Source: Synechococcales cyanobacterium CNB
GTDB lineage: Bacteria > Planctomycetota > Phycisphaerae > Phycisphaerales > UBA1924
NCBI GenBank assembly: GCA_030263455.1
Contig: SZOZ01000010.1
Location: 62,001 to 126,000 of the forward strand
Direction: 5' to 3'
DNA length: 64,000 bases
A model generated the notes under the pieces. The model worked only from the letters and a program-made list of their open reading frames with translations, did no database searches and was not told the origin of the DNA. The position numbers and the translations under genes are program-made. Every line of letters begins with the position of its first letter. Within the stretch, counting starts at the first letter, position 1. Below are positions 17,280 to 22,757 of this stretch, piece after piece.

Positions 17280-18485
17280 CTACCCCGCGCGCTCGAGCGC
17301 CATTGCGATCCCCTGCCCGACACCGATGCACATGGTGCACAGGGCGCGGCGCAGGCCGCTGCGCTCCAGTTGGTGCATCGCCGTCGCGACCAGCCGCGCC
17401 CCGCTCATGCCCAGCGGGTGCCCGAGGGCGATCGCCCCCCCCTGCGGGTTGACGCGCGGGTCGTCGTCGGCCAGGCCCAGTGCTCGGGTGCACGCCAGCG
17501 CCTGGGCGGCGAACGCCTCGTTGAGTTCGATCAGGTCGAAGTCGTCGAGCCGCAGCCCGAGCCGATCCAGCAGCCGGCGCGTGGCGGGGACCGGCCCGAT
17601 GCCCATCACGCGCGGCTCGACGCCCGCCGACGCCGCCCCGAGGATGCGCGCCCGCGCCCGCAGGCCGTGGCGCGACGCCGCGTATTCCGACGCCACGAGC
17701 AGCGCGGCCGCGCCGTCGTTCACGCCCGAGGCGTTGCCGGCGGTGACGGTCCCGCCCGGGCGCACGATCGGTCTCAGTCTCGCCAGCGCATCGGCCGAGG
17801 TGCGGCGGGGGTGCTCGTCCGTCGAGACCTCCGTCGCCTCGCCCTTCGGCCCCGGCACGCGCACCGGCACGATCTCCGCCGCGAGCGAACCGCTCGCCTG
17901 CGCGGCGGCGGTTTTCTGCTGACTCCGCAGGGCGAAGGCGTCCTGATCCTCGCGCGAGATGGCGTGCATCTCGGCGAGGCGCTCGGCGGTCTCGGGCATC
18001 GAGTCCGTGCCGTACGCCTCGCGCATCCGCGGGTTGACGAACCGCCAGCCGATGGTGGTGTCGTGCAGTTCCGCCTCGCGTGCGAAGGGCGACGCGGCCT
18101 TGGCGAGGACGAACGGCGCGCGCGACATGCTCTCGACGCCGCCCGCGATGGCCAGGTCCGCCTCGGCGCACGCGATGGCGCGGGCGCAGGCCGCGACGGC
18201 CTCCATGCCCGAGCCGCAGAGCCGGTTCACGGTGACGCCGGGGACGCTCGGGGGCAGGCCGGCGAGCAGAAGCGCCATGCGAGCGACGTTGCGGTTGTCC
18301 TCGCCGGCCTGGTTGGTGCATCCGAGCACGACGTCGTCGATCGCCGACCGGTCAAGGCCCGGGTTTCGGCGCAGGATCGCATCGAGGGGGATGGCGGCCA
18401 GGTCGTCCGTCCGCACGGTCGAGAGCGCGCCGCCGTAGCGGCCGATGGGCGTGCGGACCGCGTCGCACAGGAGTGCCGCGTGCAT
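17280..18485 (-). CDS. Acetyl-CoA acyltransferase (thiolase), PcaF-like
   Basis: The protein has 401 aa, standard thiolase length. The nucleophilic Cys is in [11 protein letters not shown] near residue 90; the His is in [17 protein letters not shown] and the second Cys in MCIGVGQG. It resembles 3-oxoadipyl-CoA thiolases (PcaF/PaaJ) most closely, enzymes that cleave 3-oxoadipyl-CoA to succinyl-CoA and acetyl-CoA. It is the last gene of a five-gene minus-strand operon, three bases after the aminotransferase. With the CoA-transferase upstream it would cleave a 3-oxoacyl-CoA, probably a dicarboxylic one. The assignment as PcaF itself is not certain, as no other protocatechuate genes are present. 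Confidence 0.88.
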
Positions 18486-18488
18486 CGC

Positions 18489-20500: not shown

Positions 20501-21207
20501 GGGTAGCGCCTCCCCTCGCGCACCAGCACGGACTCGTCCGCGGGTTCCCGCACCTCCACCACGCGCTGCACGAAGACGCCCGGGGTCACCACGACCTCAG
20601 GGTCGATCTCGCCCGGCTCGACGACGCGGCGCGCCTGCGCGATCGCCACGCGCGACGCCATGCACATGATGGGGCCGAAGTTCCGCGCGGTCTTTCGGTA
20701 GACGAGGTTCCCGTAGCGGTCGGCGCGCTCCGCCTTGACCAGCGCGAAGTCGGCCGTCAGCGCGTGCTCGAGCACGCACTCGCCCCCGGCGAAGGTACGC
20801 CGTTCCTTCCCCTCGCCCAGGGGCGTGCCGACGCTCACGGGGGTGTAGAAGGCCGGGATGCCCGCCCCCCCCGCGCGAATGCGCTCGGCGAGCGTCCCCT
20901 GGGGCACGAGGTCCAGCGCGACCCGGCCTGCGCGGTACATCGAGGCGAAGACCTCCGAGTCTGCGCTGCGCGGGAAAGAGCAGACGACCCGCTCGACGCG
21001 GCCGGCCTCGATCAGGGCGGCCAGGCCGACACGCCCGCACCCGGCGTTGTTGCTGATGACCGTCAGCCCACGGACGCCATGGTCGATCAGCGCGTGGATG
21101 AGTTCGACGGGGCTGCCCGCGCTGCCGAAGCCTCCGATCATCACCGCCGCCCCGTCGGGGACGCAGGCGACGGCCTCGGGCACCGAACTGCACCGCTTGT
21201 CGATCAT
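20497..21207 (-). CDS. 3-oxoacid CoA-transferase subunit A (ScoA/PcaI-like)
   Basis: The protein has 236 aa. The family's CoA-binding loop is visible in GGFGSAGSPVELIHAL near residues 25-40. TVISNNAGCGRVGLAALIE and TPVSVGTPLGEGKERRTFAGGE also follow the A-subunit pattern. It forms a heteromeric CoA-transferase with the next gene. The ATG at 21207 overlaps the KamA-family stop codon (ATGA), placing CoA activation directly in the same translational unit as the aminomutase. Confidence 0.9.
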   Translation of the reverse strand: MIDKRCSSVPEAVACVPDGAAVMIGGFGSAGSPVELIHALIDHGVRGLTVISNNAGCGRVGLAALIEAGRVERVVCSFPRSADSEVFASMYRAGRVALDLVPQGTLAERIRAGGAGIPAFYTPVSVGTPLGEGKERRTFAGGECVLEHALTADFALVKAERADRYGNLVYRKTARNFGPIMCMASRVAIAQARRVVEPGEIDPEVVVTPGVFVQRVVEVREPADESVLVREGRRYP

Positions 21208-22757
21208 CCCAGGACCTTCAGCGGCGTCCGGCGTTCGAGCGTCGCCGCCAGCGCCCGCTCGATCTCGCGCAGCTCCGCCTCGAAGAAGAACTCGCCCCCG
21301 TCCAGCGGGACGAGCCGGTCCACCCGCGTTTCCTTCTCGTCGTACACGGCGAGGAATACCCGGTCCATCCAGGCCATGTTGCGGGCCTCGTTGAACTTCA
21401 GCGCGAGCGCGCGCCGCCCGCCCACCGTCGCCTCGCCCAGCAGCGAGAGCTTGCCCGCAGAGGTCGTCATCGTGATGTACCGCGAGGGGCGGTTCAGCGA
21501 ACTGAGCGAGCGGAAGACGAGGTTCGAGATCTTCTCGACGTCCGCGAGTGGGGCGGCGAAGTAGTGGTGCTCGCCCGTCGCGCGGGCGCAGTACATCGAG
21601 TGGAACCGCACCAGCAGCGTGCCGAGGACGTTCGCCAAGTCGATCCAGTTGCGTGCGGAGCGTTCGACGTCCGTCGTGCCGTCGGCACGCTTGAACAGGC
21701 TGATGTGGTTCATGATCGGGCTTTGGCTGCGCACCACCACGCCGTGTGCCTGGAGCCGCCGGACGGCGGCGATCGTGCTCGGGTTCAGCAACTCGCGGGG
21801 CGTGGAGAAGTGCGCCATCCACGACAGCTGCACGCCGTTCGCGTGCATCTCGTCGAACAGGCCGAGGGTCCGCTCGTAGCGGCGCGTCAGCAGCATCTCG
21901 GGCTGGTAGGTCAGGGCGCGAGAGGCCAGCCGGACCGTCCGCACGTGCAGCAGCGACGGGTCCTCCATGATGGGCCGGACGTACTGCCGCAGCCGCTCGG
22001 CGGGGATGTACCCCGCGTCCCCGCCGGTGATGAGCAGATCGGTCACCTCGGGGTGACGGCGCAGGTACTCGTGCACCTGCGCGATGTCCTCCTGGATGAA
22101 CATGTCGTCGTCGCGGCGGAGCTGCGCGTGCCGGAAGCAGTAGGTGCAGAAGGCGAAGCACGTCTGCGTGGTCTTGTCGAAGATCAGCTGGCACTGCGGG
22201 TACTTGTGCTGGCTCCCCTCGACGATCTCGACGCCGCCGTCGTCGCGCTCGATCCACGGCTTGTTGAGCAGCTGGTGCCCGTCGTGCGGGTTTGTTTCTT
22301 CCTTGTACGCCTCCGCCACACGCGACCGCGCCGCCGCGTCCGACGCGGCCTCGTACCGCGCCACCACCTCCGGGCGCATCATCCCCGGCTGCGGGAACAT
22401 CAGGTGGTACATCGAGTCCGTCTCGTACGCGCCCCAGTTGATCGTGTTCAGCGCGTGGCTCGTCGCCTTGAACCGGTACACCTCGACGAACAGCTCGCGC
22501 TCGACCATCGCGCCCAGGCGGATGCCGTGCTCCCCCAGGATGCCCGCGACCTGCCGGAACCCGCGCAGCCCCTCGTACTCGCGCCGGGCAGGAAAGAGGA
22601 ACGGGGCACGCTCCATCAGGCCGCTGTGCTCGGGGTAGGTCCGGTGCAGCCGGCTCAGCAGCCCCAGCGGCAGCAGCCCCTCCGACTCAACGATCGATCG
22701 GGTCTCTTCCGGGTACCCGTACCGGTCGAGCAGCGCCTGAAGGTCGGCCTGGGTCAT
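21204..22757 (-). CDS. KamA-family radical SAM 2,3-aminomutase, substrate probably not lysine
   Basis: The protein has 517 aa, about 100 longer than clostridial lysine 2,3-aminomutase because of an N-terminal extension. The radical SAM cluster motif C-FAF-C-TY-C is at residues 200, 204 and 207, followed by DLLITGGDAGY. A probable PLP lysine lies in TTSAGKLSLLGE. Where the clostridial enzyme has YQCD (Asp293, binds the lysine side chain), this one reads YCAR, and its second lysine-binding Asp (330) is also absent, by hand alignment from memory. The family uses SAM, PLP and a [4Fe-4S] cluster to shift the alpha-amino group to the beta position. First gene of the operon. An in-frame ATG at 22781 is an alternative start. 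Confidence 0.83.
   Translation of the reverse strand: MTQADLQALLDRYGYPEETRSIVESEGLLPLGLLSRLHRTYPEHSGLMERAPFLFPARREYEGLRGFRQVAGILGEHGIRLGAMVERELFVEVYRFKATSHALNTINWGAYETDSMYHLMFPQPGMMRPEVVARYEAASDAAARSRVAEAYKEETNPHDGHQLLNKPWIERDDGGVEIVEGSQHKYPQCQLIFDKTTQTCFAFCTYCFRHAQLRRDDDMFIQEDIAQVHEYLRRHPEVTDLLITGGDAGYIPAERLRQYVRPIMEDPSLLHVRTVRLASRALTYQPEMLLTRRYERTLGLFDEMHANGVQLSWMAHFSTPRELLNPSTIAAVRRLQAHGVVVRSQSPIMNHISLFKRADGTTDVERSARNWIDLANVLGTLLVRFHSMYCARATGEHHYFAAPLADVEKISNLVFRSLSSLNRPSRYITMTTSAGKLSLLGEATVGGRRALALKFNEARNMAWMDRVFLAVYDEKETRVDRLVPLDGGEFFFEAELREIERALAATLERRTPLKVLG

Follow-up and report, generated by a model that had tools for sequence, protein, structure and literature searches.

A five-gene operon on the minus strand of a 64,000-nucleotide stretch of DNA from Synechococcales cyanobacterium CNB (GCA_030263455.1, contig SZOZ01000010.1, positions 62,001 to 126,000; hereafter the window), a genome (G000) that GTDB places within the Planctomycetota, probably degrades lysine-derived L-2-aminoadipate to acetyl-CoA and succinate. 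Its five intact reading frames encode a KamA-type radical S-adenosylmethionine (SAM) aminomutase, subunits A and B of a CoA-transferase, a class III aminotransferase and a thiolase (Table 1). In the proposed route, the aminomutase, a radical SAM and pyridoxal phosphate (PLP) enzyme, would turn 2-aminoadipate into 3-aminoadipate by shifting its amino group one carbon along, from C2 to C3. The class III aminotransferase would take this amino group off, probably to 2-oxoglutarate, leaving 3-oxoadipate, which the CoA-transferase would charge with CoA from succinyl-CoA in the manner of PcaIJ. The PcaF-type thiolase would then split 3-oxoadipyl-CoA into acetyl-CoA and succinyl-CoA, thereby restoring the CoA donor. 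As drawn, the route has no oxygen-requiring step, unlike that through the 2-oxoadipate dioxygenase HglS. We favor 2-aminoadipate as substrate because of lysine genes linked to the cluster in other genomes, an arginine where lysine 2,3-aminomutase has Asp293, and a thiolase of PcaF level in a genome with no intradiol dioxygenase. Genes, family membership, conservation, neighbors and active-site residues are seen directly, and from these we infer which substrate is used and which reactions it undergoes, with their direction and stereochemistry.

Re-reading of the frames showed that the gene order, the three four-base overlaps and the three-base gap claimed in a preliminary description of this DNA were exact, with junctions of -4, -4, -4 and +3 bases from KamA to the thiolase. 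The step order proposed there (aminomutase, transaminase, CoA-transferase, thiolase) likewise fits the families, conservation and neighbors that we found. The five-gene arrangement is more than chance, because the same cluster recurs in other phyla.

Table 1. Genes of the operon, in order of transcription (positions in the window)
Gene product	Position	Strand	Features
KamA-type radical SAM, PLP aminomutase ("type 1")	22757-21204	minus	517 aa; CX3CX2C C200/C204/C207, K436 (PLP Lys), R392
CoA-transferase subunit A (PcaI/ScoA-type, 3-oxoacid)	21207-20497	minus	236 aa; 4-base overlap with KamA; TIGR02429
CoA-transferase subunit B (PcaJ/ScoB-type, 3-oxoacid)	20500-19829	minus	223 aa; GTG start; HTENGLLG stretch; 4-base overlap; TIGR02428
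Class III aminotransferase, glutamate-1-semialdehyde (GSA)-aminomutase-like group	19832-18489	minus	447 aa; K271 (PLP Lys), R24
PcaF-type 3-oxoadipyl-CoA thiolase	18485-17280	minus	401 aa; 3-base gap after aminotransferase; TIGR02430

Among 101 relative genomes, the window KamA finds a match in 32 at an E value of 0.001, with at least 70% identity in five (G000, G001, G002, G035 and G027). All five of these type-1 genomes hold the cluster, the thiolase of G002 being cut by the contig. Eleven weak matches (22.6-24.4% identity, tblastn) adjoin the same CoA-transferase genes and, wherever the contig reached that far, the same aminotransferase. A second KamA, here called type 2, is found in 26 of the 101 genomes, none of which also carries type 1; the 31 genomes with either type are referred to below as cluster-KamA genomes and the remaining 70 as others. 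Neighborhoods were covered for 19 of the 26 type-2 loci (G041, G053, G060, G074, G078, G089 and G099 were left out), and in all 19 both CoA-transferase genes stand beside KamA, one of them cut by a contig end, while a thiolase lies convergently on the opposite strand in 15.

A wider scan with an alignment of the aminotransferase gave 582 loci, and the counts that follow are for the best 80 of these and describe the nearest relatives of this aminotransferase, not the whole set. The cluster, on whose recurrence elsewhere the preliminary description had staked its reading, is conserved outside the window genome: KamA is present in 66 of the 80 loci (29 with type 1 and 37 with type 2, while 14 lack it), and both CoA-transferase genes accompany it in 61 of those 66. 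A thiolase on the same strand follows closely in 26 of the 29 type-1 loci and in 4 of the 37 type-2 loci. The KamA-bearing loci span eleven to twelve phyla. By record titles, KamA together with this aminotransferase occurs in Sumerlaeota, Pseudomonadota, Desulfuromonadales, Verrucomicrobiota, Acidimicrobiia, Planctomycetota, Acidobacteriota, Bacteroidota, Gemmatimonadota, Ignavibacterium and Cloacimonadota, and also in Anaerolineae, there without the CoA-transferase genes. Most of these records are metagenome-assembled genomes (MAGs), in which stray contigs are possible; Draconibacterium sediminis (L116), Maribellus sediminis (L092), Ancylomarina euxinus (L112) and Mesorhizobium carmichaelinearum (L080, with a different CoA-transferase) are named strains.

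The neighbors of the cluster point to lysine. A gene for piperideine-6-carboxylate dehydrogenase (P6CDH) lies near it in 8 of the 80 loci, four with type-1 KamA (L092, L116, L118, L056) and four with type 2 (L064, L073, L094, L080); six of the eight pass the cutoff of NF050084, and two are contig-end fragments with 53-57% identity. At one gene per 4 Mb, the 765,486 flank bases of the 66 KamA loci would hold about 0.19 such genes by chance, and the probability of at least six is 6e-8, a figure for loci that are related and not independent, three of the eight coming from one bacterial family. The other 4 of the 12 aldehyde dehydrogenases in the flanks were rejected as P6CDH (L065, L082 and L119, of no family or of other families, and L101, with 29% identity). 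Genes of the saccharopine-dehydrogenase family (PF16653) stand beside the clusters of L092, L116, L118, L111, L073 and L080. In the first three, the same strand runs on into P6CDH and a saccharopine-dehydrogenase-type protein, the L092 copy of which has its closest match in the saccharopine dehydrogenase domain of human AASS. In Cloacimonadota (L111), a lysine-ketoglutarate reductase (the reductase domain of human AASS is nearest, 266 bits) and a PF16653 protein are encoded upstream of KamA; L073 has the order KamA, aminotransferase, P6CDH, saccharopine-dehydrogenase-family protein; and L080 encodes HglS (737 bits, cutoff 550) in addition to a saccharopine-dehydrogenase-family protein. Such oxidative lysine-degradation genes, linked in some loci, also speak against the idea that the operon works in reverse, as a source of 2-aminoadipate or of an osmolyte of the beta-amino-acid kind. 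In principle the aminomutase and the aminotransferase could run either way, but condensation by the thiolase is unfavorable, and we give the reverse direction hardly any credence.

The window KamA scores under every KamA-family cutoff in a search with family models, its best result being 63.4 bits against 396.25. It stays below the KamA-family NCBIfam subfamily TIGR00238 (59.2 bits, cutoff 199.2), lysine 2,3-aminomutase (TIGR03820; 57.2 against 525.4) and glutamate 2,3-aminomutase (TIGR04368; 53.8 against 650), and it is the sole match of this last model in its genome. The EpmB model gives 44.1 bits against a cutoff of 369.3 (TIGR03821), which disposes of the worry, raised in the preliminary description, that the protein might be an enzyme for lysylation of elongation factor P. 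The family models thus rule out the names EpmB and lysine, arginine or glutamate 2,3-aminomutase. Because it scores under all these cutoffs, the protein is, as judged from its sequence, a divergent lineage, and we call it KamA-type and not a member of TIGR00238.

The CX3CX2C motif, the PLP-binding lysine and the lysine-2,3-aminomutase fold of the KamA family are all found in the window protein. An AlphaFold2 model (predicted local distance difference test [pLDDT] 85, predicted template-modeling score [pTM] 0.88) aligns with lysine 2,3-aminomutase of Clostridium subterminale (2A5H) at Z 28.1 and a root-mean-square deviation of 3.2 over 327 residues with 20% identity, the next chain reaching Z 12.1; the predicted fold is clearly lysine 2,3-aminomutase-like. 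For type 2, the fold search with a weaker model (pLDDT 79.7) also ranks 2A5H first (E 1.8e-12). In an alignment of 30 of the 32 type-1 sequences in hand, the CX3CX2C motif (residues 200-207; C200, C204, C207), R392 and K436 are invariant.

Asp293 of lysine 2,3-aminomutase binds the epsilon-amino group of the substrate. In the set used for the KamA tree, this position is Asp in all five lysine-type enzymes and Arg in all 24 cluster KamA proteins (12/12 of type 1 and 12/12 of type 2), and no residue other than Arg occurs there when 30 type-1 and 21 type-2 sequences are aligned (R392 in the window). Cluster KamA has also lost another Asp of that enzyme, which precedes the PLP lysine. These replacements speak against lysine itself as the substrate, which would be processed through beta-lysine, 3-oxo-6-aminohexanoate and its CoA ester to 4-aminobutyryl-CoA and acetyl-CoA. 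Lysine 2,3-aminomutase is the most familiar member of the KamA family and also the enzyme that the predicted fold matches, but a pathway starting from lysine would also have no need of the linked P6CDH, saccharopine dehydrogenase and lysine-ketoglutarate reductase, and we regard it as very unlikely. The Arg fits a side-chain carboxylate, and it would exclude lysine better than it proves 2-aminoadipate. Taken with the linked genes and the thiolase, the window KamA is most likely a 2-aminoadipate 2,3-aminomutase, a predicted activity.

The remaining enzymes fit the later steps of the proposed route. CoA-transferase A passes the pcaI_scoA model TIGR02429 (338.7 bits, cutoff 128.5) and CoA-transferase B the pcaJ_scoB model TIGR02428 (288.3 bits, cutoff 243.55). 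The thiolase passes the pcaF equivalog TIGR02430 (685.3 bits, cutoff 597), is the only protein of its genome above that cutoff, and contains the Cys, His and Cys stretches of thiolases. A 3-oxoadipyl-CoA thiolase at the end of the path fits 2-aminoadipate, which would yield 3-oxoadipate. An ordinary aromatic beta-ketoadipate operon was considered and ruled out for the window genome, in which no intradiol dioxygenase was found. Of the 31 cluster-KamA genomes, 20 were searched for such an enzyme, which was lacking in 17 and present in three.

The aminotransferase is recognized by the Aminotran_3 model (181.4 bits, cutoff 30.5), retains K271, and reaches 326.2 bits against a cutoff of 527.3 with the HemL model TIGR00713. 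It belongs to the GSA-aminomutase-like group but not to HemL, which does not favor the purely GSA-type activity that the preliminary description had cautioned against. The solved structure closest to it is a transaminase of beta-amino acids, 6K8H (406 bits), from Sphaerobacter thermophilus, for which a passage of PMC10589169 gives beta-phenylalanine, beta-leucine and beta-homoalanine as substrates. In the alignment with 6K8H, R24 of the window aminotransferase falls on R36, a residue proposed in that paper to bind the substrate carboxylate. Arg 29 was dropped as evidence, being invariant in the first 15 sequences and present in only 81 of 95 in a larger set. The protein is probably a 3-aminoadipate:2-oxoglutarate aminotransferase, as predicted from sequence.

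The old beta-leucine route leads from leucine through beta-leucine and 3-oxoisocaproate to isobutyryl-CoA and acetyl-CoA. It has the same logical order of steps, and together with the acceptance of beta-leucine by the nearest solved aminotransferase it might suggest a neutral amino acid as substrate here. A PcaF-level thiolase and the glutaconate-type CoA-transferase of L080 indicate a dicarboxylic acid instead, and the invariant Arg and the lysine-pathway neighbors also disagree with a neutral side chain, which makes this alternative highly improbable.

How 2-aminoadipate would be supplied is less uniform. P6CDH occurs in 29 of the 31 cluster-KamA genomes and in 52 of the 70 others, and at 81 of 101 genomes is too common for its co-occurrence to serve as evidence. 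Saccharopine-dehydrogenase-family genes show no enrichment (18/31, comprising 5/5 of type 1 and 13/26 of type 2, against 42/70). Because co-occurrence at the level of genomes was uninformative, physical linkage was used instead. Lysine 6-aminotransferase is found in 5 of the 101 genomes; the four above 500 bits (three above the cutoff of 520.8) are all type-2 cluster genomes, for which the chance of all four falling among the 31 is about 0.008 by hand calculation. The window genome could form 2-aminoadipate by means of a lysine-6-dehydrogenase-like protein and a P6CDH, both encoded on other contigs. The former, a saccharopine-dehydrogenase-family protein of 381 residues, has its best solved match in 3abi (180 bits; human AASS, 67), which we take to be the L-lysine dehydrogenase of Pyrococcus horikoshii. 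Beside its gene lies an aldehyde-dehydrogenase-family frame of 325 residues that matches the Pfam profile only over roughly its first half (contig C13 of G000, L197:3961-4938).

Several of these findings, and some others, weigh against a lysine-derived 2-aminoadipate pathway. No lysine gene adjoins the operon in the window itself, and P6CDH is absent from 58 of the 66 KamA-locus flanks (at most 9 kb per side, and shorter where a contig ends). Many genomes that lack the cluster also have P6CDH, and saccharopine-dehydrogenase-family genes are no more frequent with the cluster than without it. The P6CDH of the window genome, at 715.8 bits, falls just below the cutoff of 730, and the record of 3abi is titled only "putative uncharacterized protein PH1688". 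Thirteen of the 31 cluster-KamA genomes, all of type 2, have neither a saccharopine-dehydrogenase-family protein nor a lysine 6-aminotransferase at the thresholds used, and the first step, from lysine to piperideine-6-carboxylate, is therefore unaccounted for there. A type-2 thiolase, the only one compared with the PcaF model, narrowly misses its cutoff (579.7 against 597). Close relatives of the aminotransferase occur without KamA in 7 of the 80 loci; of the 14 KamA-less loci, seven end too near the aminotransferase to show KamA, three have the CoA-transferase (L071, L100, L109) and four have neither (L119, L128, L129, L131). Finally, the Arg is the weaker as proof of 2-aminoadipate because two further KamA lineages not found with the cluster also have it (type 3, 11/11; type 4, 3/3).

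Of the two substrates named in the preliminary description, 2-aminoadipate has gained from the linked lysine genes and the PcaF-level thiolase, and glutamate is disfavored. On L-glutamate, the same chemistry would pass through 3-aminoglutarate, 3-oxoglutarate and its CoA ester to acetyl-CoA and malonyl-CoA. Glutamate 2,3-aminomutase is a known enzyme of the KamA family (passages of PMC11284099 and PMC9105233), the Arg would suit any acidic side chain, and 13 of the 31 cluster-KamA genomes lack known-family enzymes for the first lysine step. Yet the P6CDH, saccharopine dehydrogenase type, lysine-ketoglutarate reductase and HglS linked to the cluster make or use 2-aminoadipate or its 2-oxo acid, the thiolase passes the model for 3-oxoadipyl-CoA thiolase, and KamA is far under the glutamate 2,3-aminomutase cutoff, so that glutamate is an unlikely substrate and 2-aminoadipate remains our preferred one.

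The first position of the operon appears, from sequence comparison, to have been filled twice, by two non-sister KamA lineages that are about 23% identical, since types 1 and 2 separate in the tree. In this tree, built from a selection of 43 KamA-type proteins and subject to a long-branch warning, type 1 joins lone type-3 relatives (100/98), type 2 stands apart, and each group forms one clade with bootstrap values of 99-100. Other members of the operon have been replaced as well, in keeping with this: next to its KamA and aminotransferase genes, L066 carries a non-orthologous CoA-transferase (46 and 48% identical) and thiolase (37%), and the CoA-transferase of Mesorhizobium (L080) is nearest to glutaconate CoA-transferase. 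The two lineages serving the same operon, and the linkage to lysine-to-2-aminoadipate genes, go beyond what the preliminary description had offered.

Type-3 KamA proteins (L006-L016, 11 relatives) are 30-34% identical to the window KamA by tblastn and have Arg at the Asp293 position; the cluster-type CoA-transferase and aminotransferase were not found in the searched stretches of about 4 kb (10-14 kb for four). A fourth small lineage (L017, L018, L019) also has Arg there, and its PLP lysine is marked by an SHxxGK stretch. G081 holds a rearranged cluster (L186, C2:127000-146000) in which type-2 KamA is divergent from a CtfA-CtfB-thiolase set, accompanied by a different class III aminotransferase (34% identity). 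Besides its full cluster (L056), the Desulfuromonadales MAG encodes another CtfA-CtfB-aminotransferase set that lacks KamA (L071:7544-12505), near what by eye appear to be a gene for a TAXI-type TRAP solute receptor and an IclR-like regulator; the lone aminotransferase of L119 has similar neighbors. In Mesorhizobium, a ferredoxin, FdxA, is encoded between KamA and the aminotransferase (L080:8638-8961, L204:15480-15803) and might supply electrons to the radical SAM cluster. An RpiR-type regulator (HTH_6 and SIS) lies divergently beside type-2 KamA in L044 (5273-6106) and seven like loci, and LysR-type or PuuR-like regulators are found near other clusters.

Comparison with known systems places the enzymes in known families, with a newly predicted activity at the head of the pathway. 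The window KamA shares with lysine 2,3-aminomutase (KamA/AblA) the fold, CX3CX2C, PLP lysine and presumably the 2,3-amino shift, but differs in its low identity and scores, in both aspartates and in its operon partners. Glutamate 2,3-aminomutase, a radical SAM enzyme of the same family, would share an acidic substrate, but it is known for forming beta-glutamate, for example as an antibiotic precursor (a passage of PMC11284099), and not for feeding a CoA-transferase and thiolase; ablA and ablB are reported for an osmolyte in a passage of PMC3543383. With the lower beta-ketoadipate pathway (PcaIJ, PcaF) the operon has its 3-oxoacid CoA-transferase and 3-oxoadipyl-CoA thiolase families in common, except that here 3-oxoadipate would derive from an amino acid and not from ring cleavage by an intradiol dioxygenase. 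Lysine degradation by saccharopine or piperideine-6-carboxylate would provide the same upper half, from lysine to 2-aminoadipate, and its genes adjoin some clusters. In the 2-oxoadipate routes (HglS or glutaryl-CoA), 2-aminoadipate is transaminated to 2-oxoadipate, whereas here it would be isomerized to 3-aminoadipate. The overall logic is beta-leucine-like: the beta-leucine route and the degradation of N-acetyl-beta-lysine both pass from an alpha- to a beta-amino acid, a 3-oxo acid, a CoA ester and thiolysis, but with other substrates and other enzyme sets.

No matching pathway was found in the openly licensed literature under aminoadipate with aminomutase, 3-oxoadipate, 3-oxoadipyl-CoA thiolase or 3-aminoadipate, although subscription literature may hold one; in passages of PMC9854754, beta-aminoadipic appears only within a reference title. 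On balance, we favor an undescribed, oxygen-independent route from lysine to the beta-ketoadipate pathway through 3-aminoadipate, spread over eleven to twelve phyla, whose aminomutase would have arisen in two KamA lineages that substitute for one another at the head of the operon. Because the one annotated type-2 KamA encountered, in a Mesorhizobium plasmid record, is labeled "hypothetical protein", the route may escape notice in present annotation. If the prediction is true, it would add a further way of breaking down lysine carbon, one that includes a new enzyme activity, joining amino-acid and aromatic catabolism, and bacteria of oxygen-poor environments could use 2-aminoadipate without passing through 2-oxoadipate or glutaryl-CoA.

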